46,191 bases of DNA from a bacterium (lineage in GTDB: Bacteria; Patescibacteriota; Saccharimonadia; Saccharimonadales; Saccharimonadaceae), in NCBI GenBank assembly GCA_027451105.1, contig DAIDKB010000035.1, forward strand, positions 1 to 46,191, in the 5' to 3' direction. Under the pieces are notes generated by a model that worked only from the letters and a program-made list of their open reading frames with translations, was not told where the DNA came from and did not search any database. The translations under genes were made by a program, and so were the position numbers. Positions within the stretch are counted from its first letter, which is position 1; each line of letters opens with the position of its first letter. This document shows, in pieces, positions 4,906 through 42,693 of this stretch.

Positions 4906-6768
4906 TTAAATAATAAACTTCTTGTCTGTGTGCGCCCTGAGAGCGTTAAATATAACTACGACGTCAACCAGCTCTTGAATAAGCGCTCCGGCTACTGGTG
5001 AAAACTTGCCGGTAGCAAAGATAAGCATCAAACCAATACTAAGGGCTATACCAATAAAAATACTCTGCCTGGCAATCGATAACGTCTCTTTGGCAATGTT
5101 AATGGCCTTGGCGACATAGCTTAGATCATCGTTCATAATTACCAGATCAGCTGATTCGCTCGCAGCTGTACTGCCTTTGGCGCCAAGGGCAATACCAACC
5201 GTCGCCGCGGTTAGCACTGGGGCGTCATTGACGCCATCACCGACAAATGCAACTGGTTGAGTGGTGACTTCGCGAACAATTTTTAATTTGTCTTCGGGCA
5301 GTAGATGTGATTGGTACTCTTTAATATTAAGTTGATTCGCGATTGCAGCCGCGGCGGCTTCATTGTCACCCGATAACATTAAGATGTGACGAATACCAAG
5401 ACCGCGAATAGCTTTTAGTGTGGCTTTTGACTCTTTACGCAGCTCATCCTTAAAGCTAATTACGCCTGCTAGGTTATTGTTAATTGCAATATAAGTCGCG
5501 GTTTGGCTGATGACATTTTGGTCAAAGTCGGTTGGTATCGTGACGGTATTTGATTCCATAAACTTGTAATTACCAACTAGAACCGTCAACTCACTCACTA
5601 CGGCCGACATGCCATTGCCAGCTAGCTCTTTGACGTCCTCAGCACGAACTAATTCAATGTTGCGACTTGTAGCCTCTTTTGTAATAGCATTGGCTAGGAC
5701 GTGATTTGATACCTGTTCAATACTGGCAGCATGGTGCAAAATCGTCGATTCATCATAATCACCCAGAACAATTACCTGGTCGACTACTGGTGTACCATGT
5801 GTCAACGTGCCGGTTTTATCAAAAGCAATTGTTTGAATTGAGGCCAGCTTTTCAAGGGCGGCGCCGGTTTTGACAATTATTCCATAACGACTGGCCCGGC
5901 TCATGCCTGAAATTATGGCGATTGGTGCAGCTAAAATTAATGGACATGGTGTAGCTACTACGATTACCTCAAGAAAGCGAATTGGGTCACCCGAAATTAC
6001 CCAGACGGCTATAGCGATAGCATAAGCGACAATCGTAAAAGGAACGCTGTAGCGGTCGGCCATGCGCACAAACGGCGATGGCGTTTCGGCGGCTTGGCGA
6101 ACTAGTTTGATAATTTGCTGATATTGACTATCTTCACCTGTGTGAATAGCGCTAACTCGGATTAAACCATCGACAACAATTGAACCACTTAAAATACTGT
6201 CACCAATATTTTTAAGTTGTGGCAAGCTTTCGCCGGTTAGGCTTGATTCGTCGACGCTAGTCGTACCTTCAATAATTTTCGCGTCAACCGGTACGGTATC
6301 GCCTGGTCGAATCTCAAGGACGTCACCTACGGCAATATCTTCAATTTTCACTTCTTCTATTTTGTCGTTTTTGACAAGTCTAGCGGTAATTGGCGCGCGG
6401 TCAAGCAGGGCGCGAAGTTCGGATTGAGCGCGACGTCCGGCGTAATCCTCCAGAGCTTCACCACCGGTCAGCATAATAACAACGATGATGGCTGCCCACG
6501 GCTGGTTCAATAATGCCGCCGAGATTATAGCGGTTGCTGCCAAAATATCAATGCCGTATTTACCAGACTTGATATCAATCCACATTCTATAAACTAGCGG
6601 CAAAGCCAGGCCAATCGAGACGGCGTCCATGGCAAACAAGCCGGCGCTGGCCAGCGGCGTAAACTGCAATATACTAACAATGACGAGCGTCAGGGCGGCA
6701 ATACTGAATTGCCAGTAATGTTTAATGAACTGTAAAACGGTTGTTGGTCGGTTTGCTAAAGTACTCAT
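4906..6768 (-). CDS. P1B-type heavy-metal-transporting ATPase (ZntA/CadA-like, no metal-binding N-domain)
   Basis: Pumps a metal cation across the membrane using ATP. It has the P-type ATPase core: two N-terminal membrane helix groups, TGES in the actuator loop (about 175), the membrane motif TPCPL with Cys at 275, the phosphorylation motif DKTGTLT with Asp 317, and GDGVNDAP near 510. The CPL replaces the usual CPC or CPH, and no N-terminal metal-binding domain is present, so the substrate (Zn, Cd, Co or another ion) cannot be read. It is 620 residues. It is divergently oriented from an Nramp-like transporter, and the shared 124-nt gap contains an AT-rich near-palindrome (TATATAGTATATAG) just upstream of this gene. 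Confidence 0.93.
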   Translation of the reverse strand: MSTLANRPTTVLQFIKHYWQFSIAALTLVIVSILQFTPLASAGLFAMDAVSIGLALPLVYRMWIDIKSGKYGIDILAATAIISAALLNQPWAAIIVVIMLTGGEALEDYAGRRAQSELRALLDRAPITARLVKNDKIEEVKIEDIAVGDVLEIRPGDTVPVDAKIIEGTTSVDESSLTGESLPQLKNIGDSILSGSIVVDGLIRVSAIHTGEDSQYQQIIKLVRQAAETPSPFVRMADRYSVPFTIVAYAIAIAVWVISGDPIRFLEVIVVATPCPLILAAPIAIISGMSRASRYGIIVKTGAALEKLASIQTIAFDKTGTLTHGTPVVDQVIVLGDYDESTILHHAASIEQVSNHVLANAITKEATSRNIELVRAEDVKELAGNGMSAVVSELTVLVGNYKFMESNTVTIPTDFDQNVISQTATYIAINNNLAGVISFKDELRKESKATLKAIRGLGIRHILMLSGDNEAAAAAIANQLNIKEYQSHLLPEDKLKIVREVTTQPVAFVGDGVNDAPVLTAATVGIALGAKGSTAASESADLVIMNDDLSYVAKAINIAKETLSIARQSIFIGIALSIGLMLIFATGKFSPVAGALIQELVDVVVIFNALRAHTDKKFII

Positions 6769-6892
6769 ATCTATATACTATATATTACTTTAAGCGCAAT
6801 GACCGCTGTCATTTAGCGAAAACTGTCAAAAAAGTTAACCGTATAGTATTCTTAGAATAATTAACATAAGCACGTAAGAATAACTAATCAAT

Positions 6893-8278
6893 ATGACTAA
6901 GAGACTAAGCCCGTTAAAACGCAACTCACGTAAAATCAATCGCGACATTACAAAAGCCGAACGTTATGCGGCTAATATTGCCAAGCATATGGTGCAGCGT
7001 AAACGGTTTGGTCGATTTATTCGCATCTTGGGACCTGGTGTTATAACCGGCGCAGCCGACGATGACCCGTCGGGTATTGCTACTTATTCACAAGCTGGTG
7101 CTGTGTATGGTAATGGGCTTTTATGGGCCTTCCCTTTTATGTATCCGCTTCTTATTGCCGTGCAGGAGTCTTGCTCGCGTATTGGCGCCGTTACAGGTAA
7201 GGGCTTGGCGGCGGTTATTAAACAGCATTATAGTAAAAGGCTATTATATATGTCGGTCTTTTTGGTCGTGATTGCTAATACTGTGAATATCGGAGCTGAT
7301 TTTGGTGCGATGGCTTCTACTACACAGCTATTCTTTGATATACCCTACATGATACTGGCGATTGCTTATGCGATAATCATTATTCTTTTAGTTGTATTTG
7401 TGAACTATAAAAAATACGCCAAGATATTAAAGTGGTTAGCTCTAAGCTTGCTGGCTTACCCTATTACGGCTTTTATGGTCGGTCAAAACTGGCCAGATGT
7501 TTTTCGAGCTACCTTTAATGTTATGCCGCAAATTAATTCCAACACAATTTATCTATTGGTTGGTATGATTGGTACCACAATCTCGCCATATCTTTTCTTT
7601 TGGGATACATCAGAGGTTGTTGAAGAGGAAATATCCACACATCGCTTAAGCGGCGCCGGTAATAATCCTGCAGTGAACCGGCATTTTTTACGAGGTGTTC
7701 GGATAGACAACTTTGTTGGCATGACGATAACAATCGTTACTGCTTGGTTTATAGTCTTAGTCTGTGCTTCGGTGCTGTTTAGGAACGGCATCACCGAGAT
7801 TAATTCAGCTGCTGATGCCGCTCGTGCGTTGGAGCCACTAGTAAAAGGCTTTCCTAATGCCGGCTTTATAGCTAAGGTTATATTTTCGGTCGGAATTTTA
7901 GGTATCGGTCTATTGGCTATTCCAGTCCTAGCCGGTTCGTCTTCATATGCAATTAGCGAGACATTTGGCTGGAGGGAAGGCTTGTATCGAAAATTTAAAA
8001 AAGCCACCGGTTTTTACGTCATAATTATAGCCGCCACGGCAATTGGCGTATTAATTAATTTTTTGGGAATTGATCCAATTAAAGCGCTAGTATTTGCAGC
8101 CGTCTTTAACAGTATTGCGTCGGTGCCTTTGCTGTGGATGTTGGTTAAAGTTGGTAATAATGCTAACATTATGGGCCAATATAAAAACAAGCTACTCTCA
8201 AATGTATTTTTACGAATAGCGGCGACAGTTATTACGATTACTGTCTTGATTTTGTTCTACTTTACGTTCTTTAAATAG
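6893..8278 (+). CDS. Nramp-family divalent metal transporter with non-canonical motifs
   Basis: Integral membrane protein of about 11 helices, related to the Nramp/MntH secondary transporters. The TM1 signature is DPSG (58-61, in the context DDDPSGIATYSQAGA) where canonical Nramps have DPGN. TM6 reads ISPY (about 231-234) where canonical ones have MPH, so the Asn and Met metal ligands are replaced. This places it among the divergent Nramp relatives rather than with MntH, and substrate may differ (Mg2+ is transported by one such group). The first 40 residues are basic and cytoplasmic. No ribosome site precedes ATG 6893. It is divergent from the P1B ATPase, suggesting a metal homeostasis locus. 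Confidence 0.88.
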   Translation: MTKRLSPLKRNSRKINRDITKAERYAANIAKHMVQRKRFGRFIRILGPGVITGAADDDPSGIATYSQAGAVYGNGLLWAFPFMYPLLIAVQESCSRIGAVTGKGLAAVIKQHYSKRLLYMSVFLVVIANTVNIGADFGAMASTTQLFFDIPYMILAIAYAIIIILLVVFVNYKKYAKILKWLALSLLAYPITAFMVGQNWPDVFRATFNVMPQINSNTIYLLVGMIGTTISPYLFFWDTSEVVEEEISTHRLSGAGNNPAVNRHFLRGVRIDNFVGMTITIVTAWFIVLVCASVLFRNGITEINSAADAARALEPLVKGFPNAGFIAKVIFSVGILGIGLLAIPVLAGSSSYAISETFGWREGLYRKFKKATGFYVIIIAATAIGVLINFLGIDPIKALVFAAVFNSIASVPLLWMLVKVGNNANIMGQYKNKLLSNVFLRIAATVITITVLILFYFTFFK

Positions 8279-13930: not shown

Positions 13931-15088
13931 ATGCAAAAGTATATTGTCAAAAGCGCCAATCAGATAACGGATACGACGTTATTATTAAACCTGGAACAGA
14001 AACCTGGCAAGGCGCCGTTTTTATATCGCCCTGGACAATATGCGGCGATTAGCTTTTATCACAAAGGAAGACCGACGCCGGCTCGTTGTTTTTCGATAGT
14101 TAGCTCGCCGACAGACCAGGGTAAGCTTCAGTTTGGTATGCGCACTAAAGGCCACTTTACGAAGTCGGCGGCCAAATTAAAACCAGGCGACCTCGTAAAA
14201 GTGCGTGGTCCTTATGGTGGCTTTGTTTTAGATATTGCCGATAGCGATGACGTCGTTTTCTTGGCTGGAGGTATCGGCGTTACGCCATTCATGAGTATGG
14301 TCTCTTACGCAACAAGTACAAAGTCGTCTACAAAAATAACCATGTTCTACAGCTGTCAAACTCAGGATGACGTTCCGTTTTTAGATGAACTACGTGCCGA
14401 CGAGCAACAAAATCCAAATTTAAAAGTCATCTATGTTATTGGCGGCGGGGTAACAGACAAATTAGCGGGATTATCAGTCGCAAGTGGACATCTGTCTTTG
14501 GATATAATTAATGCGGCGCTTAATAACAATTATGATAATCGGACTTTTTATGTTTGCGGACCACCGCCCTACATGAATGCGATGGCCAAATCTCTTAGGC
14601 AAAAAGGTGTTGGTAAAAATAGTATTATCACTGAGGCGTTTGCACAGGGTTCGCATCCCCAGACTGGTAAAGTGCAAAGTTGGCCATATAATATTTATGT
14701 CCTAGGTGCGGCAAGTCTAGTGTTGGGCAGCTTGGCAGTGACAATTAGTGATATGATAAAAACATTGCCGCCGCAGTCATTACTTAATTCGGCCAACCTA
14801 TCACCAACTTTGACGTCGTCAAATTCAAGGCAGCGAGATTTAGATAATCTTGTTAATAGTTTGCCGCCGCTGGCTTCAAGTGCCCCGTCAACTGCTGCCG
14901 TTCAGGCGTCTGACCAAGCTGCTCAGAATGACGCGGCGGCATCAGCTACCGCTGCAGCCGCCGCGGCTGCAGCTTCAGCAAGCGCTACCAAGGTAGTATC
15001 GACTCCCGTGGTTGTTCGAGCACCGGTTGCTGTACCGGCACCAAAAACCTGCACAACAACCCAAAGCGGTGTCACGACATGCGTCTAG
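13931..15088 (+). CDS. FAD/NAD(P)H ferredoxin-reductase-type oxidoreductase with C-terminal membrane anchor and Ala-rich tail
   Basis: Ferredoxin-NADP reductase fold. The FAD-binding barrel carries RPGQY and R52-C-F-S (the RxYS/T flavin motif), with the G-rich GPYGGF block after it. The nucleotide domain has GGIGVTPF (113-120) and FYVCGPPPYM (about 205-214). Unlike soluble relatives, a membrane helix follows (about 250-270), then a 110-residue low-complexity tail rich in Ala, Ser and Pro with two late cysteines. This predicts a cytoplasmic flavoprotein tethered to the membrane with its tail outside. It is the first gene of a tight operon with apbE and a two-heme membrane protein, so it probably feeds NAD(P)H electrons to that heme protein. 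Confidence 0.88.
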   Translation: MQKYIVKSANQITDTTLLLNLEQKPGKAPFLYRPGQYAAISFYHKGRPTPARCFSIVSSPTDQGKLQFGMRTKGHFTKSAAKLKPGDLVKVRGPYGGFVLDIADSDDVVFLAGGIGVTPFMSMVSYATSTKSSTKITMFYSCQTQDDVPFLDELRADEQQNPNLKVIYVIGGGVTDKLAGLSVASGHLSLDIINAALNNNYDNRTFYVCGPPPYMNAMAKSLRQKGVGKNSIITEAFAQGSHPQTGKVQSWPYNIYVLGAASLVLGSLAVTISDMIKTLPPQSLLNSANLSPTLTSSNSRQRDLDNLVNSLPPLASSAPSTAAVQASDQAAQNDAAASATAAAAAAAASASATKVVSTPVVVRAPVAVPAPKTCTTTQSGVTTCV

Positions 15089-16044
15089 TGTCCTATTATC
15101 AGACGAGCCTAGCACTTGGTAGCGATGTGGGTTTGACATTGGTCAGCGACGAATCGGTTGACGCGATTGATAAAATTTTTAAGGATTTATGGCACCGTAT
15201 CTATACATTCGAGCGGTCATTTAGTCGCTTTATTCCCAGAAGTGAACTCACTTTATTTAATCGCTCAGCTGGTCGGCGAACCAAGATATCTGCAGAATTT
15301 AAAGATCTGCTTAACGATGCCAAGTCCATTAGTGAAAAAACTGACGGACTTTATAACCCCTTTATTATGCCAGCACTACAAAAAACTGGTTATAAGCAAT
15401 CGGCTGTGCCGGGTTACGAGCATGATATTGTTGATGACTATTCACGACGACGAGTTGGTTTGATGGATGAGTTACAGATTGGTGATGATTGGGCGTTAAT
15501 ACCTAGTGATACAGCTATTGATATGGGCGGTTGCGGAAAAGGCTATTTAGCCGACAGGTTGGGTGACGCCTTGACCGGTCTTGGCATAACTAATTATCGC
15601 CTGTCACTCGGCGGAGACATCGCGACATCAGGCACGGATGAGATGGGTAACGAGTGGATTATTGGTATTCAGGACGCAAATAATCTTGACGGTGAGATAC
15701 CTAAAATGGTCAAGTGTCCGACTAGCCGGTTCGCCGTTGCAACCTCAGGTACGTTTAAAAGAAAAGGTTACGTAGCGGACGAGGGTTGGCATCATATCAT
15801 TAATCCTATTACGTTGAAGCCTGCTGTTACCGACGTGCTTCTTGCGACGATATGTGCGGATAAAGCTATATTAGCCGATGTCTTGGCGTCTTGTGCAATC
15901 ATTGTCGGATCAAAAGATGCGAATGATTTTGCTAAACCGCTCGGAGCCGATGCTATGCTGTTACAATGTAATAACCAGAATGTTCTGTTTGAAAACCAAT
16001 CTGGACAATTTATAATAAAAACACCAGCAAGCGAGGGTATTTAA
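15079..16044 (+). CDS. apbE: FAD:protein FMN transferase (ApbE family)
   Basis: Covalently attaches FMN from FAD to Ser/Thr of target proteins. Family features are FSRFIPRSELTLFNRS near 47-62, DMGGCGKGYLADRL (about 148-161), LSLGGDIATSG, and ATSGTFKRKG...WHHIINP, with a late conserved TDVLLATICAD-type block. The length is usual (321 residues). No lipoprotein or Sec signal is evident, so it may act in the cytoplasm, unlike many ApbE proteins. It overlaps the reductase gene by 10 nt. I found no FMN-binding domain or D-x-x-S/T-G-A-S/T acceptor motif among the proteins of this window, so its target is elsewhere or unrecognised. Confidence 0.93.
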   Translation: MRLVSYYQTSLALGSDVGLTLVSDESVDAIDKIFKDLWHRIYTFERSFSRFIPRSELTLFNRSAGRRTKISAEFKDLLNDAKSISEKTDGLYNPFIMPALQKTGYKQSAVPGYEHDIVDDYSRRRVGLMDELQIGDDWALIPSDTAIDMGGCGKGYLADRLGDALTGLGITNYRLSLGGDIATSGTDEMGNEWIIGIQDANNLDGEIPKMVKCPTSRFAVATSGTFKRKGYVADEGWHHIINPITLKPAVTDVLLATICADKAILADVLASCAIIVGSKDANDFAKPLGADAMLLQCNNQNVLFENQSGQFIIKTPASEGI

Positions 16045-16047
16045 ATA

Positions 16048-16770
16048 ATGCGCCAGTTTATGACAGCAACAATACTAATATTGATCACTTTCATGTTTGC
16101 GATAACAGTTAATAGTAGCGTCGCTCGGGCTCAGTCGCAAAACTCGTCAGGGACAATTATTGTGCAGACTATACCCGGACCAACCGTGGCGCAAAAAATT
16201 TTACAGCGGGCCGATAGCTCATGGCCATGGTATGTCACCCGGGCATCAGGATTTGTCGCCGCCGCTGCTTTGTTTATGCTAATATTATCCGGAATTGGTC
16301 TCGTTGCTGGCGGTGCTTTTAGGTTTTTAGAGCCGCTAACCGCTTGGGCCTCACACCGTGCGCTTGGTCTAACTTTTGGAATATCAGTTTTAATACATAT
16401 GTCATCATTATTGTTTGATCATTTTGTGCCCTTTAATATTCTTGACGTTCTAGTGCCGTGGCTGTCAAACTATAAGCCAGTTAGCCTATTTGGATTTCAG
16501 CTTGGCTCACTGTTTGTGGCGCTCGGCGTGCTGGCTTTTTATGGTGTGGCGGCGATTATTATTACATCAATTGTCTGGGTCGATAAAAAACCTCACACCT
16601 GGAAAATCTTTCATCTTCTGTCCTACCTAGTCCTTTTGTTTGTCTTTGTACATGCCCTATATCTGGGTACAGATTTGGCTGGAGGCATTTTGCGACTAGT
16701 TTGGTTGGCGCTTGGATTAATTATGGCCTTGGCTATTTTATATAGATTGTGGCGCGCGAAAACGATATGA
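16048..16770 (+). CDS. Two-heme ferric reductase/NOX-like transmembrane protein
   Basis: Predicted signal-like segment (1-28) then about five membrane helices. Four histidines lie in helices as two pairs: H103 and H117 (14 apart), and H189 and H202 (13 apart). This is the spacing of the heme ligands of NADPH oxidases and ferric reductases, so two stacked b hemes are expected, carrying electrons across the membrane. The usual fused FAD/NADPH domain is absent, but a separate reductase is encoded two genes upstream in the same operon. Starts 3 nt after apbE. Final acceptor (Fe3+, O2, a quinone or a flavinylated protein) is unknown. MsrQ-like function is an alternative. Confidence 0.8.
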   Translation: MRQFMTATILILITFMFAITVNSSVARAQSQNSSGTIIVQTIPGPTVAQKILQRADSSWPWYVTRASGFVAAAALFMLILSGIGLVAGGAFRFLEPLTAWASHRALGLTFGISVLIHMSSLLFDHFVPFNILDVLVPWLSNYKPVSLFGFQLGSLFVALGVLAFYGVAAIIITSIVWVDKKPHTWKIFHLLSYLVLLFVFVHALYLGTDLAGGILRLVWLALGLIMALAILYRLWRAKTI

Positions 16771-17390
16771 GAGGCGAATTACGTTATGCTAACAGTAAAC
16801 GATTTAGCCGTGTTGCCTGGCTCCTATTTTGGACGCTACTGTTGGGATTGTTGATGTATGGATTTTATCAGCTTGTTAGTCATATCCAGATGCGATCATT
16901 GCCGGCCGGCCAAATTCAGTTATCGGTACCCTATTCAAAGTATTTAGTGGGCGAACCTATAACATTTACGATCAAGAATAACTACAACAGCTCAATTTAT
17001 TTATCAAATGACTGTCCGGCCGAACCGCTCAGGGTGTACCGCCAAGAGAATAATTTGTGGGTGCGTATTCATGATACGGCATCAATTAGCGATTGTCCGA
17101 CCGAGAATCGTCAGATCGAAGTGCCGGCCAACAGTTCGGTTAATGGTAGCTTTGCGCCTTGGCATAATTTATTTAACACACCTGGTAAATATAGGATTGT
17201 TGCCTATGTCGAGTATTATGATGCACTTCCCTACCAGGACTTCGAGGTTGTTGCAAAGTATGTGCCGTTACCGAAGCCAGCGCCTGTTACACCCGCGCCG
17301 GCCGTGCCGGTATACACTCAGCCGGTAGTCAGAACGGTCAGCCCTACGACCACTACAACAACTACTTATACTGAGCCAGCGGATGACTAG
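16767..17390 (+). CDS. Membrane-anchored extracytoplasmic protein with Ig-like domain and Pro/Thr tail
   Basis: ATG overlaps the preceding stop as ATGA (16767-16770), so it is translationally coupled to the heme protein. One membrane helix (about 17-38) is followed by an extracellular domain of about 115 residues, beta-rich, with two Cys-Pro motifs (NDCP and SDCP) likely to form a disulfide. The pattern (YLVGEPITFTIKNN ... PGKYRIVAYVEY) resembles Ig-like/BsuPI-type beta sandwiches. The tail is Pro-rich and ends in a run of Thr. No redox motif is present. An ATG 18 nt upstream is possible. Function unknown; the operon suggests a partner of the membrane redox system. Confidence 0.75.
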   Translation: MRGELRYANSKRFSRVAWLLFWTLLLGLLMYGFYQLVSHIQMRSLPAGQIQLSVPYSKYLVGEPITFTIKNNYNSSIYLSNDCPAEPLRVYRQENNLWVRIHDTASISDCPTENRQIEVPANSSVNGSFAPWHNLFNTPGKYRIVAYVEYYDALPYQDFEVVAKYVPLPKPAPVTPAPAVPVYTQPVVRTVSPTTTTTTTYTEPADD

Positions 17391-20455: not shown

Positions 20456-23047
20456 ATGAAAAAAACATTTCGCAAGGAATCTAGCAACGGAACTATCGAC
20501 GATATATCAAAAATATACGAGCTTGGGCGTGCTGTTCCGGCGCCACCAAAAAACATTATCGAGCCAGAATTAAGCGACAATGCGCAGTATATAGCAAGTA
20601 CTCGTTATGCTCGCAAAAATGCTAACGGTGAGCCAACCGAAACACCAAAAGAGATCTTTTGGCGGGTCGCATATAATATCGCAACGGCTGATCGACTATA
20701 TGATGGCAGTCGCGGAATTCACGACAAGACGGCGCATGAATTTTATGATCTTATGGCAACTCGTCGATTTTTGCCAAACACACCAACGCTACTAAATACC
20801 GCTAAACCTGGTCAACAGCTATCGGCGTGTTTTGTGTTACCGGTACCAGATAGTTTGGATGGTATTTTACAGACCGCATCAGACATGGCGATGATTCATA
20901 AGTCTGGTGGCGGTACTGGCTTTTCGTTTTCAAGACTGCGTCCAAAGAACGATGTTTTGCAGTCATCTGGCGGTACGACGACCGGCCCGGTCTCATTTAT
21001 GCAGATGTATAACGACATTACGTCTTCTGTTCGACAAGGTGGTGTGCGTCGCGGTGCCAACATGGGTATACTGCACTACAATCACCCAGATATCTTGTTA
21101 TTTTCGATATACAAACTTGATGAGTTCTCGCTAACAAACTTCAACATATCAGTCACAACTGACCAGGCATTTTTTGACCAAGTGAAAATTGACAGTAAGG
21201 TATTACCAGACAACTATGAAGATGATTTTGACTTTGAATCACTTGTAGCCGAGGTTCGTGCTGCCCATCAAACCCGAGACATCGATCTTAAGCAGGTCCG
21301 TTTGGACGCCGCCGTTAAAAGATTACGTGATTGGTGCGATGAAGATCGAGACGGCTATGGCTATGATCTGATTAATCCACGGACGAATGAAGTCGTTGGT
21401 CGCTTGAACGCCAAGAAGGTTTTTGATTTAATTACACGTCTGGCTTGGCAATATGGTGATCCTGGCATGATATTTATTGATCGAATTAATGATTCACGGG
21501 CTAACCCAACGCCGCAATTGGGCCGAATTGAAGCAACAAATCCGTGTGGTGAACAACCGCTACTACCTTATGACGCATGTACGCTTGGTAGTATTCAGCT
21601 GGCGCTGTTCGTAAAAGATGGTCAGATTGACTGGGATGGTCTTCGTACGACAACTCATCAAGCAATCCATTTTCTAGATAATGTTTTGGATATGAATGAA
21701 TATCCAATTGATAAGGTTCGTCAGATGACGCGTTCGATTCGTCGTATCGGTCTGGGAATTATGGGTCTTGCTGATGCGCTTTTGGCGCTTAACATTGGTT
21801 ACAATACCGATGGGGGCGTCGAAATGGCGTCAAAACTTATGAAGTTTATCCAAGACGAATCAGACATTGCCAGTGTTGAACTAGCAAAAACTCGCGGTGT
21901 CTTTCCTGCTTTTGAGGGTTCGATCTATGACAAGCCGGGTGAAATTAGTCCACGCAACGGAGCGCGCACAACGATTGCACCAACCGGTACGATTGCCATG
22001 CTGGCCGATGCATCGAGTGGTTGTGAGCCGCTATTCGCGCTTACCTATGCTAAAAATACAATCGAAGGCAAACGTATGTTCCAAACTAGTCCATACTTCG
22101 TGAAGGCTTTAACTGACCGTGGTCTGTACTCGGAGGCATTAATGGAAGAGATCCAAGCTAATGGCGGCTCGATTCAAAATATCGCCTCCCTACCCGACGA
22201 CCTAAAAGAAGTCTTTGTAGTTGCGGGTGACATTAGTCCGGAGTGGCATTTGAAGATTCAGGCAGGATTGCAAAAATATGTCGATAACGCCATATCAAAG
22301 ACGATCAACTTCTCTAATAACGCGACGATTGATGATGTTCGCAATGCCTATCTGACGGCCTATGAAACTGGTTGTCGCGGTATTACGATCTATCGCGACG
22401 GAAGCCGTGAAAAGCAAGTTCTTGAAGTTAAGGGCGAAACGTCATACTACGATAAGCTTGCCGGCAAGACTAAGCCAGCTCCAGAGGCTGCTCAGGCTGC
22501 ACCAGTTATGCTAAGGCCACGCCCTGACGTCCTTAACGGTCGTACTTACAAAATATCAACACCGGTTGGCAAGGCATTCGTCTGTATCAATGAGGATAAC
22601 AGCGGAAATATTTTTGAGGTATTCATCAATGTTGGACGTGCTGGATCGGACATAACAGCCGACGCCGAAGCGATTGGTCGCTTAATATCGCTTAACTTCC
22701 GAATTCCAACCGACTATGGATCGGATCGAATTGCTCAAAATGTTGCCGAGCAACTACGCGGTATTGGTGGGTCTGGCTCAACCGGCTTTGGGGCTGATAG
22801 GGTTCGATCTCTTGCTGATGCTGTCGCGAAGGCTATTGAAGAGCACGAGGCAACCAAGGCTAGCCGATTACCTCAAAGCGAACATTATAGCGTCGCACCG
22901 GCCGCCGTGTCGTCAGCTGCCATAGGTGTCGAGAGCGACAAGAAGGCCGATAGCTTAAAGGATATCTGCCCAGAATGTGGTTCGGCCGCGCTGCGCTATA
23001 TCGAAGGCTGTCAAAAGTGCGAATCATGCGGCTTTAGTAAGTGCTAA
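20456..23047 (+). CDS. nrdJ: Adenosylcobalamin-dependent (class II) ribonucleotide reductase
   Basis: Reduces ribonucleotides to deoxyribonucleotides with adenosylcobalamin as radical source. 863 residues. Visible: PNTPTLLN, QQLSACFVLP with C125 (half of the redox pair), GGGTGFSFSRLR, VRRGANMG, NPCGEQPLLPYDACTLGS with thiyl-radical C364, IAPTGTIAMLA, and GCRGITIYRDGSREKQ. A TSCPD-like domain lies at about 700-790. The C-terminal 26 residues hold six cysteines in a zinc-ribbon-like arrangement that passes electrons from thioredoxin. Next to it are thioredoxin, B12 adenosyltransferase and predicted cobalamin-uptake genes. No other RNR is in the window. Confidence 0.97.
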   Translation: MKKTFRKESSNGTIDDISKIYELGRAVPAPPKNIIEPELSDNAQYIASTRYARKNANGEPTETPKEIFWRVAYNIATADRLYDGSRGIHDKTAHEFYDLMATRRFLPNTPTLLNTAKPGQQLSACFVLPVPDSLDGILQTASDMAMIHKSGGGTGFSFSRLRPKNDVLQSSGGTTTGPVSFMQMYNDITSSVRQGGVRRGANMGILHYNHPDILLFSIYKLDEFSLTNFNISVTTDQAFFDQVKIDSKVLPDNYEDDFDFESLVAEVRAAHQTRDIDLKQVRLDAAVKRLRDWCDEDRDGYGYDLINPRTNEVVGRLNAKKVFDLITRLAWQYGDPGMIFIDRINDSRANPTPQLGRIEATNPCGEQPLLPYDACTLGSIQLALFVKDGQIDWDGLRTTTHQAIHFLDNVLDMNEYPIDKVRQMTRSIRRIGLGIMGLADALLALNIGYNTDGGVEMASKLMKFIQDESDIASVELAKTRGVFPAFEGSIYDKPGEISPRNGARTTIAPTGTIAMLADASSGCEPLFALTYAKNTIEGKRMFQTSPYFVKALTDRGLYSEALMEEIQANGGSIQNIASLPDDLKEVFVVAGDISPEWHLKIQAGLQKYVDNAISKTINFSNNATIDDVRNAYLTAYETGCRGITIYRDGSREKQVLEVKGETSYYDKLAGKTKPAPEAAQAAPVMLRPRPDVLNGRTYKISTPVGKAFVCINEDNSGNIFEVFINVGRAGSDITADAEAIGRLISLNFRIPTDYGSDRIAQNVAEQLRGIGGSGSTGFGADRVRSLADAVAKAIEEHEATKASRLPQSEHYSVAPAAVSSAAIGVESDKKADSLKDICPECGSAALRYIEGCQKCESCGFSKC

Positions 23048-23079
23048 TAACAAATTAAATAATTAAGAGGATTAAAGAA

Positions 23080-23463
23080 ATGAAAAAACGAATTATCATC
23101 ATTATAGCCAGTGTACTAGTAATCACAGGACTTAGTGTCGGCGGCGTAATGTGGGCGAATCGAACAAACTCGACATCGAAGGCTAGCCAGACTACCACAA
23201 CCGCACAACAACCGACAACCAGCATTACCTACAAAGGCAAAGCTGGCACGACTGCCCTAGCGCTTTTGCAGCAAGCGGCTAAGGTTGATATGACCGGTAC
23301 TGGCGACATGGCATACGTAACAAGTATCAATGGCACTTCTGCCGATTCGGCCAAAAAACAATATTGGGAATTTGATGTTAATGGTACTGCCGCAGCCGTT
23401 GGTGCTGGCAGCTATGTTACTAAAGACACTGATACGATTACTTGGAAGTTGAGTTCGTACTAG
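23080..23463 (+). CDS. DUF4430 (transcobalamin-like domain) anchored extracytoplasmic protein
   Basis: N-terminal membrane helix (about 5-24), a Thr/Ser/Gln linker, then a domain of about 75 residues (from TYKGKAGTTALALLQ) ending in YWEFDVNG, AAAVGAGSY and KDTDTITWKL. This matches the DUF4430 domain, which is related to the C-terminal domain of intrinsic factor/transcobalamin. It starts 33 nt after nrdJ behind AAGAGG and is followed at once by a predicted transporter S component. Inference: a surface cobalamin-capture or delivery protein. Confidence 0.8.
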   Translation: MKKRIIIIIASVLVITGLSVGGVMWANRTNSTSKASQTTTTAQQPTTSITYKGKAGTTALALLQQAAKVDMTGTGDMAYVTSINGTSADSAKKQYWEFDVNGTAAAVGAGSYVTKDTDTITWKLSSY

Positions 23464-23466
23464 ATC

Positions 23467-24048
23467 ATGAAAAGTTTTAAATCAATCATAACTATTCTTG
23501 GTTTGATTGCTGTCGCGGTTATCTGGCGAATCATCAACCACCAGTATGAGTTTGCGCCTAACCTTGAATTAGTTACATTGGTAAGTATAATCGCGGCTTT
23601 AGCCTATGGTTGGCGCGTGGCCCTTCTGGTATCGATTGGCAGCATGGCTGTATCTGATGCTATTATCGGCAATACATCAATCCTGGTTTATACATGGGGG
23701 GCATTTGGTCTAATTGGGCTTGGTGCGGTTATCTTACGCAAGCTTAATAATAAGCCGAAAACACAAGTTTTGGCATCAGCTGGATTTGTGATTGCCAGTT
23801 CGACATTGTTCTTTGTTATAACAAACTTTGGCGTATGGCTTGAGGGCTGGTATCCAATGACCTGGGCTGGTCTTGCAACATGCTATCAGCTGGCAATACC
23901 GTTTTACCGTACTATGCTAATCGGTAACCTGATTATGGTGCCGGTTGCAGTGGCCGCCTGGCGGTACTTGCGAGTACGCGCTGCCGCTAGATTATCAGTA
24001 GTCGATTCCCTTGTTAGCGATAAACCTATCGTCAAAGTGGTGCTTTAA
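23467..24048 (+). CDS. DUF6580-type membrane protein, predicted ECF S component (cobalamin?)
   Basis: Five to six membrane helices in 193 residues, with the family-like features LEXVTLVS...ALAYGWR near the start, and WYPMTWAGLATCYQLAIPFYRTMLIGNL. This matches my memory of the DUF6580 family, thought to be substrate-binding S components of ECF vitamin transporters. Between a transcobalamin-like protein and cobalamin adenosyltransferase, cobalamin is the likely ligand. EcfA/EcfT partners are not in this window. It begins 4 nt after the previous stop with no ribosome site of its own. Its last 54 nt overlap the convergent cobO gene. Confidence 0.75.
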   Translation: MKSFKSIITILGLIAVAVIWRIINHQYEFAPNLELVTLVSIIAALAYGWRVALLVSIGSMAVSDAIIGNTSILVYTWGAFGLIGLGAVILRKLNNKPKTQVLASAGFVIASSTLFFVITNFGVWLEGWYPMTWAGLATCYQLAIPFYRTMLIGNLIMVPVAVAAWRYLRVRAAARLSVVDSLVSDKPIVKVVL

Positions 24049-35586: not shown

Positions 35587-36156
35587 CTAATGCGCTGCCT
35601 GATTAATCGGCGTATTATACGGACCAGCTGTTGGCTCTGGTGCATGACCGGCGTGCTGATTAAAAAACTTCACAATTATAGATTCATTGTACTGATCAAG
35701 ATTGAGTGTGTATCTCCAGCTTGCAAGTTCTATGGCATGCGTGTCTTTCGCTCTAGGTGCTACCAATGCCTTTAGCGGCGAGAAAGACTTATTGCTATAT
35801 GGTGGAACAAATAGTGCCTGCAGCTTTTTAAGCTGATCACTCGGTAACAAGTTTGGCTGATAGGTTATCACGACGCCACCATGTTCTTCATTATGTAAAA
35901 ACACCTCATCGGGAACTGCGGTTGTGTACACGCCCCAATCAGTAGGAGCACCAGTATCGTCGTAGTGAGGCCCTGAGCTTGCTGGGTCAGAATTATACGC
36001 TAGGTGCGATTGGCCGCGCGCAATATGCGCTTCTCCTTGATCCGCATGCTGAACACCAAGCAGAGGTTCTTTTGATTTTGTAACTTGATTCACGACGATA
36101 AGGCCCGTAAACCCAAAGATGAGAATCCCTGACGTAATCCATAATGTTTTTGACAT
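35587..36156 (-). CDS. DUF3105 family membrane-anchored protein
   Basis: N-terminal membrane helix (about 5-23), then a DUF3105 domain outside the cell: YNSDPASSGPHYDDTGAPTDWGVYTTAVPDEVFLHNEEHGGVVITYQ, with the conserved His-rich LHNxEHG motif, and IELASWRYTL later. Function of the family is unknown. AAGGAAT precedes the ATG by about 10 nt. Confidence 0.9.
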   Translation of the reverse strand: MSKTLWITSGILIFGFTGLIVVNQVTKSKEPLLGVQHADQGEAHIARGQSHLAYNSDPASSGPHYDDTGAPTDWGVYTTAVPDEVFLHNEEHGGVVITYQPNLLPSDQLKKLQALFVPPYSNKSFSPLKALVAPRAKDTHAIELASWRYTLNLDQYNESIIVKFFNQHAGHAPEPTAGPYNTPINQAAH

Positions 36157-37827: not shown

Positions 37828-39963
37828 CTAAATTTTTACTCGGTGTAGTAATTGCGCATTGGCGGCCACTATGATCGTCGATAGCGACATCAGAACAGCT
37901 CCAAGGGCTGGCGACAAAACGAAACCAAGCGAATACGTGACGCCAGCGGCTAATGGTATCGCAAAAACATTGTAACCTGTCGCCCAGACCAAATTTTGTA
38001 TCATTTTTCGATAAGTGGCCTTAGATAGCGTAATAGTTTTCGCAACACCGCGAGGATCACTCCCCATTAGCACAATTCCAGCCGATTCAATAGCTACATC
38101 TGTGCCGGCGCCAATAGCAATACCGACCTCGGCTTGGGTGAGAGCTGGTGCATCGTTAACACCGTCGCCAACCATAGCGACGCGACTGCCATCGGCTTGT
38201 AATTTTTTGACTATTGCAGCTTTATTCTCTGGTAAAATTTCCGCAAAATACTCCTTAATACCGAGTTCTTTAGCTACCCAGGCAGCAACCCCTTCGGCGT
38301 CACCTGTTAGCATAGCGACTCGTTTGCCCATGCCGTGTAGAATAGCTACCGCTTCCTTCGACTCTTCACGAATTACGTCAGCAAGGACTATTGCGCCAAG
38401 TACTGCCGTGCCTTTTATCACGTAAACTACAGTTGAACCATTTTTCGAAGCCTTTTCGGTAGACTGTACGATTGACTCCGGTAAGTTCAGTTGTAATTCG
38501 CGTAGTAGGCTAGGCCCGCCAACATATACCACTGAATCGCCGATTGTTGCTCGCGCACCGCGTCCGGCCAGCGCAGAAGAGCCTTTTGAAGATGCGGGTG
38601 TGATATTTTTTTGTTTTGCAGATGTGACAATTGCTCGCGCTATCGGGTGCTCAGAGTCATACTCGACGGCGGCAGCAAGACTCAGTAGCTCAACTTGATC
38701 ACCGTCGGTAATAATATCTATAACGCCCTGTTCGCCTTTGGTTAATGTACCGGTTTTGTCGAACAAGACAACATCGACATTGCGCGCGGCCTCAAGAGCT
38801 AGTCTTTGCTTGACTAATAAACCATTTTTTGAAGCCATAGTTGTCGAGATTGATGTAACGAGCGGGACGGCCAATCCTAACGCATGCGGACAGGCAATAA
38901 TCAGTACTGTTACGATTCGCGCCAAGATGAACCCAAACGATGCATTGGTAAATAACCCCCAGCCTAGCCAGGTGGCAATAGCTGCACCTAACGCGATAAA
39001 AGTTAGATATGAAGCGGCTCTATCGGCTAATATTTGAGTTTTAGACTTTGTACTCTGAGCATCGGCGACTAGCTTCATTATACCGGCGAGTGCAGTATCG
39101 TCACCGATTTTGTCGATGCGCACTGTCAGCGCGCTCATGCCATTAATAGTGCCTGCGATTAGCTGTGATTTCGGCGTTTTTCGGACAGCCTTGGACTCAC
39201 CCGTCAGCATCGATTCATTCACATCAGACACACCCTTTGTCACCTCGCCATCAGCTGGAACTTTAGCGCCAGGACGAACCAGAATAATATCACCAATTTT
39301 CAATTCCGATACGGCAATTTTCTTCGTTGTGTCACCCGCAACAAGCTCAGCCTCATCCGGTAATAGTTTTGCCAATTCGTTCAACGCACCTTGAGCGCGC
39401 TTGACGGAGGCCATCTCGAGCCAGTGACCGAGTAGCATTATAGTAATAAGGGTAGCCAGCTCCCACCAAAAATCCATACCACTGACGAGCCGTAGCGTAA
39501 TTGCGAGGCTATAGGCAAAGGCAACCGAAATAGCCATAGATATGAGTGCCATCATGCCAGGTTGGCGGCCCGCAATCTCTATTTTGGCGCTTTTTAGAAA
39601 TACCAGGCCGCCATACCAGAAAAGGATAATTCCGAAAACTGCCGGTATGTATTCACTTCCCGCAAAAGAAAAATTGACACCAAACCAGCCTTGCACAGTA
39701 GACGAGAATAGCAGCACCGGTATTGTTAGTACTAGGCTCAGCCAAAACTTCTTTTTGAAAACATTTGGGCTGTGACCGGCATGTTTATCGTGACTAGGCT
39801 GATCGTTATCAGACCCATTATCCTTCACTCGTACCAATGCCATACCGCACTCTGGGCACATTCCCGATTGAGACTGATGAATTTCTGGGTGCATTGGACA
39901 GGTATATGTCATTTGGGTGTCAGCGGTCTTAACAGCAGCCATGTGGTCGTGATGGTTTGGCAT
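37828..39963 (-). CDS. copB: Copper-translocating P1B ATPase of the CopB (CPH) type with N-terminal metal-binding domain
   Basis: Exports copper from the cytoplasm. N-terminus has a heavy-metal-binding zinc-ribbon-like domain, CPMHPE...CPECGM. Core motifs are TGES, the intramembrane CPH (C358, [12 protein letters not shown]), phosphorylated D402 in DKTGTLT, and [13 protein letters not shown] rather than CPC places it in the P1B-3 group, associated with Cu+/Cu2+/Ag+. Start ATG 39963 (MPNHHDH) preferred over GTG 39972. It overlaps the preceding metal-binding peptide by 35 nt. Confidence 0.93.
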
Positions 39964-40162
39964 TATTATCACTCACTTTCATTGTTTTGCCTACAGGATT
40001 ATTATCAATTGGTTTGAGTAACATGCCGCATTCAGGACATTTGCCCGGATTAGACGACTTTACTTCTGGGTGCATCGGGCACGTATATGTATCACCATTA
40101 ATTTGACTGGACGAGTTTTTGCTACTATTTTGAGTGAACGCATGTATTATATGTTTAATCAT
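39929..40162 (-). CDS. Small stand-alone heavy-metal-binding-domain protein, 77 aa
   Basis: Contains one copy of the same CPMHPE...CPECGM domain found at the N-terminus of the adjacent CopB, ending in HGCC. The first 25 residues are basic and polar without a signal. It likely binds copper and passes it to CopB, or buffers it. Its 3' end overlaps copB by 35 nt. Confidence 0.8.
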   Translation of the reverse strand: MIKHIIHAFTQNSSKNSSSQINGDTYTCPMHPEVKSSNPGKCPECGMLLKPIDNNPVGKTMKVSDNNAKPSRPHGCC

Positions 40163-41805: not shown

Positions 41806-42693
41806 ATGGGTATTGTTGAAACTGCTTCATTAATTACCGCCTTTCTAGCTGGTGGCGCGGCCTTGTTTGCTCCATGTTGCGTCGGGGTATTGCTGCCCTC
41901 CTATCTTGCATCTATCTTTCAAACAAGAACAAAAATATTCTTAATGACGTTCGTGTATTACCTAGGTCTACTGACGGTATTTTTGCCACTTGGCCTAGGT
42001 TTTGCCAGTCTGGGCGGACTGTTCAGGGACAATCATACAATCATATTTGCAGCTGGCGGACTCTTTATGGTCGCGCTAGGCGTTTTGCTGGTTATTGGTA
42101 AATCAATCATGCTGCCGATACATATTCATCCAAAGTTAGGCAAACAGCATAATTTTTGGGCATTCTATGTGCTGGGTGTATTTTCCGGTATAGCAACTAG
42201 TTGCTGCGCACCTGTGCTAGCCGGTGTAATGGCCTTAACCGTCCTGCCGGGATCATGGGCGCTTGGGGCGGTATATTCGCTAGCATTTGTAACGGGTATG
42301 GTAGTTCCCTTATTTATTGTCGCCATGTTTGTTGATCGTACAAAAATGCTTGAGAGGTTTCAACTTCTAAAGCGTCAAATCCACTACACTTTTTTTGGAC
42401 ACAAAGTATATCTACACTTGTCTCATTTAGTATCGGGTATCCTGTATATCGCCTTCGGCTCATTAGTCTTGTATTTTGGTAGTCGTGGCCCAGAGGCCTT
42501 GAGTAATGCTTATCAGCTAAATATTAATATTTGGACGGCTCAGACTACGCAGATGATCGGTCAGGCAACAAGCGGTATTCCACAATATATATGGGCGTTA
42601 ATTTTTGTCGGTATATTTATATTAATCGCATGGTCTGCCTACAGGCAGGCTAACAAAGAATTAATCAAAAATAAGCAGGAGAATAAAAAATGA
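41806..42693 (+). CDS. ccdA: Cytochrome c biogenesis/disulfide reductase transmembrane protein CcdA
   Basis: Transfers reducing equivalents from cytoplasmic thioredoxin across the membrane. It has six to seven helices, with the conserved cysteine pairs C24-C25 in LFAPCCVGVLLPSYL and C133-C134 in ATSCCAPVLAG, each CC in place of the single Cys of classical CcdA. The C-terminus is Lys/Asn-rich. It overlaps the redoxin gene by ATGA (42690-42693), so reductant is probably delivered to that protein. Confidence 0.88.
   Translation: MGIVETASLITAFLAGGAALFAPCCVGVLLPSYLASIFQTRTKIFLMTFVYYLGLLTVFLPLGLGFASLGGLFRDNHTIIFAAGGLFMVALGVLLVIGKSIMLPIHIHPKLGKQHNFWAFYVLGVFSGIATSCCAPVLAGVMALTVLPGSWALGAVYSLAFVTGMVVPLFIVAMFVDRTKMLERFQLLKRQIHYTFFGHKVYLHLSHLVSGILYIAFGSLVLYFGSRGPEALSNAYQLNINIWTAQTTQMIGQATSGIPQYIWALIFVGIFILIAWSAYRQANKELIKNKQENKK

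Follow-up and report, generated by a model that had tools for sequence, protein, structure and literature searches.

In SpNOX, a bacterial NADPH oxidase (NOX; PMC5676040, PMC11031084; PDB 8qt6), a single fused chain carries two bis-histidine hemes on two helices together with an FNR-type partner domain, and neither ApbE nor an exported tail is involved. The MsrQ/Fre system of E. coli (Juillan-Binard 2017, as cited in PMC11031084) instead uses a separate FNR-type reductase to feed a membrane protein of the FRD superfamily (the ferric-reductase/NOX fold); MsrQ passes the electrons to MsrP, and the reductase has no exported tail. Close counterparts too are the MsrQ-like flavinylation clusters (Meheust et al. 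2021, PMC8238504), in which an FRD cytochrome, an NAD-binding reductase and ApbE are encoded together and the proposed electron path runs from NAD(P)H via the hemes to a flavinylated site outside the cell. Those clusters usually encode reductase and FRD as one fusion, and a separate protein that binds flavin mononucleotide (FMN) holds the flavin. Here we analyze a four-gene unit in a 46,191-nucleotide stretch of Saccharibacteria-type DNA (contig DAIDKB010000035.1, called the window hereafter; its assembly comprises 0.92 Mb) that encodes a reductase with a membrane helix and an exported tail (RED), an ApbE FAD (flavin adenine dinucleotide):protein FMN transferase, a predicted two-heme membrane protein (HEME), and an immunoglobulin (Ig)-like protein (IG). 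We put the probability that this operon specifies an FRD-type transmembrane electron exporter with FMN on RED's own tail at roughly 60%.

All four genes lie on the plus strand, and positions below are those of the window, while residues are numbered within each encoded protein. The open reading frames for RED (13931..15088, 385 residues), ApbE (15079..16044, 321 residues), HEME (16048..16770, 240 residues) and IG (16749..17390, starting at a GTG at 16749 or an ATG at 16767) were all found as described in an earlier, sequence-only reading of this DNA, which had noted four overlapping or abutting genes. The overlap is 10 bases between RED and ApbE and 22 bases between HEME and IG, and 3 bases separate ApbE from HEME. 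When HEME was searched against 100 relatives, 22 gave any match, with strong matches mostly confined to the genus and patchy even there. The RED-ApbE-HEME-IG order was almost always retained around these matches and at 22 further loci; homologous loci were found in genomes titled Candidatus Saccharibacteria, among others. Across Saccharibacteria the RED-ApbE-HEME order is conserved and IG is present in most loci. The four-gene order turns up again at almost every closely related locus, so the arrangement is not due to chance. The sequence-only reading had asked for a search for this order in other Saccharibacteria and for homologues in which the reductase never co-occurs with the heme gene; RED in fact accompanies HEME at nearly all loci. 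Four genomes carry two versions of the operon (L082/L083, L085/L084, L157/L139 and L151/L147), one with IG and a HEME bearing a signal peptide and the other shorter and lacking IG. In the closest relative (L025:3871-4587), a second reductase copy with no helix or tail lies just after IG.

HEME shows the features expected of an FRD protein. Its hydropathy profile indicates a signal peptide and five transmembrane helices, and of its six histidines (103, 117, 125, 183, 189 and 202), four (H103, H117, H189 and H202) are unchanged across 33 homologues with identities as low as 31%, whereas H125 and H183 vary. The same four histidines are also invariant in 20 sequences that reach other classes of the candidate phyla radiation (CPR), down to 22% identity. 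The spacings of 14 (H103/H117) and 13 (H189/H202) reported in the sequence-only reading were confirmed. That reading had further expected helices placing the histidines in facing pairs, and the AlphaFold model (pLDDT 82.7) agrees as far as each pair lying on its own helix is concerned, with H103/H117 in helix 96-121 and H189/H202 in helix 182-205. HEME is thereby predicted to have the two histidine pairs, spaced 13-14 residues apart on two transmembrane helices, that characterize FRD proteins. In a fold search, SpNOX ranked as the best match, with CsNOX5, NOX5 and STEAP2 also among the top ranks (probability 0.9-1, E 0.01-0.4), and the sole match in a profile search of the PDB was human STEAP4 (E 9e-4). 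HEME had no Pfam match, PF01794 included, and a PF01794 profile search of the window's own genome likewise gave no match. On its sequence and model, HEME is a member of the ferric-reductase/NOX fold, and it is predicted to bind heme. Because SpNOX pairs its ligands across two helices (H69/H129 and H82/H142; PMC11031084), the analogous pattern in HEME would be an inner heme held by H103 (codon 16354..16356) and H189 (16612..16614) and an outer heme held by H117 (16396..16398) and H202 (16651..16653). The window's genome gave no match to ferrochelatase or to COX1, so heme would need to come from an external source. At four loci (L077, L079, L080 and L081), HEME or its neighbors carry DxDxDGxxD repeats outside the membrane that resemble thrombospondin type 3 calcium-binding repeats.

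The cytosolic part of RED (residues 1-240, 13931..14650) is an FNR-type domain by Pfam (NAD_binding_1, 9e-16; FAD_binding_6, 1e-7) and by its PDB relatives, which include flavohemoprotein and the dehydrogenase domain of SpNOX, and it contains an NAD motif, GGIGVTPF. Its FAD motif is R52-C53-F54-S55 (RCFS) rather than the H[PSA]F[TS] of NOX enzymes (PMC5676040), and together with the encoding of FRD and dehydrogenase on separate genes this sets the system apart from NOX proper. A single helix follows (residues 252-273, 14684..14749), predicted to run from inside to outside on the basis of hydropathy, of K, R and H residues before the helix and D after it, and of conservation in the alignment. 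Since NAD(P)H is cytosolic, the ~112 residues beyond this helix should lie outside. This tail is variable and rich in Ser, Thr, Ala and Pro, with two conserved parts: a segment at residues 297-311 (14819..14863), in which N298, D305 and N309 are invariant, and the tip, which in the window is the tag CTTTQSGVTTC (residues 374-384, 15050..15082). The sequence-only reading had seen that RED has a membrane tail, but it missed the tail's outside location and conserved tip, as well as the fact that ApbE lacks a signal peptide.

The tip takes different forms in different clades. It reads CTTTQSGVTTCV in the window's clade and CQTTPSGRCI or KTTASIPPP in others; in the window's clade the core sits inside a Cys-bracketed loop, while in many relatives [ST]-x-[ATV]-S stands at the very C-terminus. 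Tails from loci with IG retain a core of [CT]-x-[TAV]-[ST], and most of them conserve the Cys pair (C374/C384 in the window), although those of L038, L040, L044 and L045 have no Cys and still keep the [ST] core. Tails without Cys but with an [ST] core also occur at L076, L077, L083, L084, L086 and most of L132-L150, and the RED tails of more distant loci finish with RSRAS, RTTVS, SSTAS, RSSVS or RGGAS. Other CPR classes encode the tail as a small protein of its own: at L078-L081, a single-helix protein adjoining apbE and HEME has KTKTS, KTRTS or TTKTS at its end (the L081 reductase itself having neither helix nor tail), and at L105 a separate tail protein with an end of this kind (KTKTS/KTRTS type) lies next to apbE at a contig end. 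We fixed the patterns [KR][ST]x[ATV]S and [TSG]x[ATV]S before further loci were fetched. Among the 13 RED tails fetched later, all of the type lacking IG, with a median identity of 29% and one of them (L148) 90% identical to the discovery sequence L083, the pattern held as written in 10 and, with its third position widened to S or M, in 12; the remaining tail is an intermediate form, MTCTSRGC. By comparison, positions inside the same tails gave the pattern at 2.5% (widened, 4.8%), and the ends of unrelated neighboring genes gave it in ~5 of 650 cases. Most distant relatives end in Ser, which led us to reject a PDZ-type interpretation of the tail (-TCV, -RCI); a thiol-only interpretation became less likely since most other tails have no Cys. 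At L140 (741-2150), RED carries a Peptidase_S74 domain (1.3e-7) from S380 onward, directly after PVTTAS, with a Ser/Lys dyad whose members are five residues apart. Domains of this kind cleave immediately ahead of this Ser (PMC8326128), so cleavage would leave PVTTAS as the C-terminus, although a single sequence at a contig end is suggestive only.

The tip resembles the target motif of ApbE, D-x-x-[ST]-G-A-[ST], whose final Ser/Thr receives the FMN (PMC12052999). According to the same review, changing the Asp to Ala has a minor effect, Gly-to-Ala and Ala-to-Val changes still give ~50%, and tags placed at the C-terminus work well. The window's ApbE is a clear member of its family (PF02424, 9e-48; transferase matches in the PDB at 1e-33), and S223, H239 and D267, corresponding to the Ser/His/Asp catalytic triad (PMC12052999), are invariant among aligned homologues. 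The gene adjoins a membrane cytochrome gene in nearly all loci, and its partners fall into two types. Of 79 CPR apbE neighborhoods, 38 are linked to HEME; every one of these has a core-bearing tail, and an SGAS protein occurs in none of them. Of the other 41, 27 have an exported protein bearing a near-canonical SGAS or SGSS motif. In a quick ApbE tree (branch support 89, midpoint root), the two partner types require only a single change. The described MsrQ-like arrangement is found at L108 and L110, where ApbE and an SGAS protein accompany a fused FRD-reductase, and the RED tail would take the place of the SGAS protein seen there. The evidence thus points to RED's own exported tail as the acceptor modified by ApbE, and from co-occurrence and motif its tip is probably the FMN site, at T377 (in CTTT) or T382 (in SGVT) in the window.

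In all, apbE was found in 83 of 380 CPR genomes. At loci L091-L130, ApbE almost always lacks a signal peptide and is often beside an exported protein with [SN]G[AS]SLTxxGF. One of these (L130, G000:C43:52200-63000) is in the window's own genome, where a second apbE accompanies an exported 167-residue ISGASLT protein and a 500-residue fusion of an NQR2/RnfD (NqrB)-like protein with a reductase. A PF04205 search of that genome gave no match and failed to detect this 167-residue protein as well; the idea that the genome encodes no FMN-binding protein was dropped on account of the clear ISGASLT protein. The survey of PMC8238504, which reported flavinylation to be strikingly under-represented in CPR, filtered out genes without signal peptides, and surveys filtered in this way would miss such CPR loci.

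The last gene, IG, encodes a membrane-anchored protein whose model (pLDDT 80.7) consists of a single helix and an Ig-like beta sandwich, and its cysteines C89 and C116 are invariant. The best Pfam match, Big_14 (PF20251; E 0.0015), scored 18.9 bits against a cut-off of 27 and was therefore below threshold, and a sequence search of the PDB found nothing meaningful. Some members of the family have no IG, and to see it as a scaffold or docking protein would be a guess. Genes neighboring the operons revealed no common acceptor, with DUF2127, TM2, FtsX, Mntp and CorA each matched at one locus.

We infer the reductase, the hemes, the topology and the ApbE activity from sequence and fold, and propose the following mechanism. 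RED would transfer hydride from NAD(P)H to its FAD in the cytosol, and the electrons would then pass to the inner heme (H103/H189) and on to the outer heme (H117/H202) of HEME. ApbE would attach FMN to the tip of RED's flexible exported tail, which would replace the usual separate FMN-binding protein, and from the tethered flavin the electrons could reach an acceptor outside, for example O2, Fe(III), a protein disulfide or a quinone-like compound; IG might serve as a docking or scaffold protein. The sequence-only reading had predicted electron export by an FRD-type two-heme membrane protein and a separate reductase in a Saccharibacteria-type genome, and the sequence evidence supports that prediction. 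The split itself is not new, as MsrQ/Fre is a described two-component NOX-like system (cited in PMC11031084 and PMC5676040), and FRD clusters linked to ApbE have been described (PMC8238504). The operon is a real, conserved electron-export unit of a known general kind, and what is new is the arrangement in which RED's own tail probably bears the flavin. Compared with the MsrQ-like clusters, this operon encodes its reductase separately and has no SGAS or FMN-binding gene next to it; the tail tip, with its divergent [ST]x[ATV][ST], is the likely carrier, and ApbE has no signal peptide. Fre is a soluble protein and is not known to share an operon with ApbE. The DUF4405 flavinylation-associated cytochromes (PMC11334425) are similarly divergent four-His membrane cytochromes beside apbE, but they belong to another family by hidden Markov model, their partners include Flavodoxin_4 proteins, and they do not follow the RED-ApbE-HEME order. 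The Flavin-tag (Tong 2021, as reviewed in PMC12052999) is likewise a short C-terminal peptide modified by ApbE without an FMN-binding domain; it is an engineered tool with the canonical seven-residue motif, whereas the motif proposed here is natural, shorter and divergent.

Several observations weigh against the proposed mechanism, and covalent FMN on the tip is a proposal from sequence. The tip motif has no Asp and, in most relatives, no Gly, and in the window's clade the tag is bracketed by Cys rather than strictly C-terminal. Because the tails are rich in Ser, Thr, Ala and Pro, so short a motif needs the composition control given above. The exact acceptor residue is uncertain, given this Cys-bracketed position in the window's clade and given that the sister clade's CQTTPSGRCI does not have the SGVT alternative. 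The HEME fold E-values are weak (0.01 at best), and PF01794 found no match; L131 and L149 have HEME without a neighboring tail-bearing RED, and L146 has no adjacent apbE. ApbE also lacks a signal peptide whereas the RED tail is outside. None of the aligned ApbE homologues has a signal peptide, and the same is true at almost all CPR loci even though tails and SGAS proteins are exported. Flavinylation may precede export, and cytosolic ApbE is known from Klebsiella and trypanosomatids (PMC12052999).

The same observations could be explained by a plain split NOX or ferric reductase in which the outer heme reduces Fe(III) or O2 directly, the tip is a redox-active C374/C384 dithiol or a structural anchor, and the target of ApbE is a different protein. 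A two-heme FRD protein and a reductase are complete without a further carrier, and MsrQ/Fre works in this way (PMC11031084); the Cys pair is kept in most IG-linked tails; and a scan for the canonical D-x-x-[ST]-G-A-[ST] gave no match in the loci examined first. However, this would leave unexplained why apbE lies within the operon at nearly all loci, why the [ST] core persists in the many tails that have no Cys, and why standalone tail proteins adjoin apbE, and we consider it unlikely, if deserving of attention. Alternatively, ApbE could act as an FAD hydrolase or a cofactor-loading protein for RED, making the operon a flavin and heme maturation unit. Treponemal relatives of ApbE hydrolyze FAD, and the missing signal peptide and the 10-base overlap of apbE with the RED gene would suit such a role, but the transferase catalytic residues are retained. 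Furthermore, since CPR ApbE proteins without signal peptides adjoin exported near-canonical SGAS proteins, the missing signal peptide does not exclude a transferase, and we regard the maturation role as very improbable.

A further explanation is that the tip is a processing or attachment signal, recognized by a C-terminal transpeptidase, a protease or a cell-surface partner, and is unrelated to ApbE. Its position at the very end of exported low-complexity tails, or close to it, would be consistent with this, as would the autocleavage domain at L140. In contrast, tails and SGAS proteins are mutually exclusive by ApbE type, the ApbE tree splits with partner type, and the tip is not followed by the hydrophobic or charged segment of sortase-type signals, making this explanation distinctly improbable. 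We favor FMN on RED's exported tail, and, somewhat more cautiously, lean toward a broader view in which these loci represent a natural "flavin-on-a-string", in which FMN would be attached to a minimal Ser/Thr tag at the C-terminus of a disordered tethered tail or of a separate tail protein and would need no FMN-binding domain. They would then form a class of flavinylated electron export in CPR that is hidden by ApbE proteins without signal peptides and by targets that do not have the known domain.

CPR bacteria have been described as lacking electron transport chains (PMC7507113), yet some of their genomes carry complete predicted chains from NAD(P)H to the outside. In the literature searched, no paper linked flavinylation to Saccharibacteria, or ApbE to Patescibacteria. 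Should FMN indeed be attached to the tail tag, this would be a new minimal class of ApbE target and a simple tethered electron carrier, and it would offer a testable route by which host-dependent bacteria could shed electrons or reduce metals at their surface.

Elsewhere in the window, a ribonucleotide reductase (PF02867, with a TSCPD domain) is followed by DUF4430 and DUF6580 proteins (20456-24048), possibly reflecting cobalamin uptake for a B12-dependent enzyme. An Nramp metal transporter adjoins a P-type ATPase at 4906-8278, and a further ATPase of the P-type, this one bearing a heavy-metal-binding domain, lies at 37828-39972. A DUF3105 protein (35587-36156) and a DsbD_TM/CcdA-like protein (41806-42693) suggest further surface redox or copper handling.

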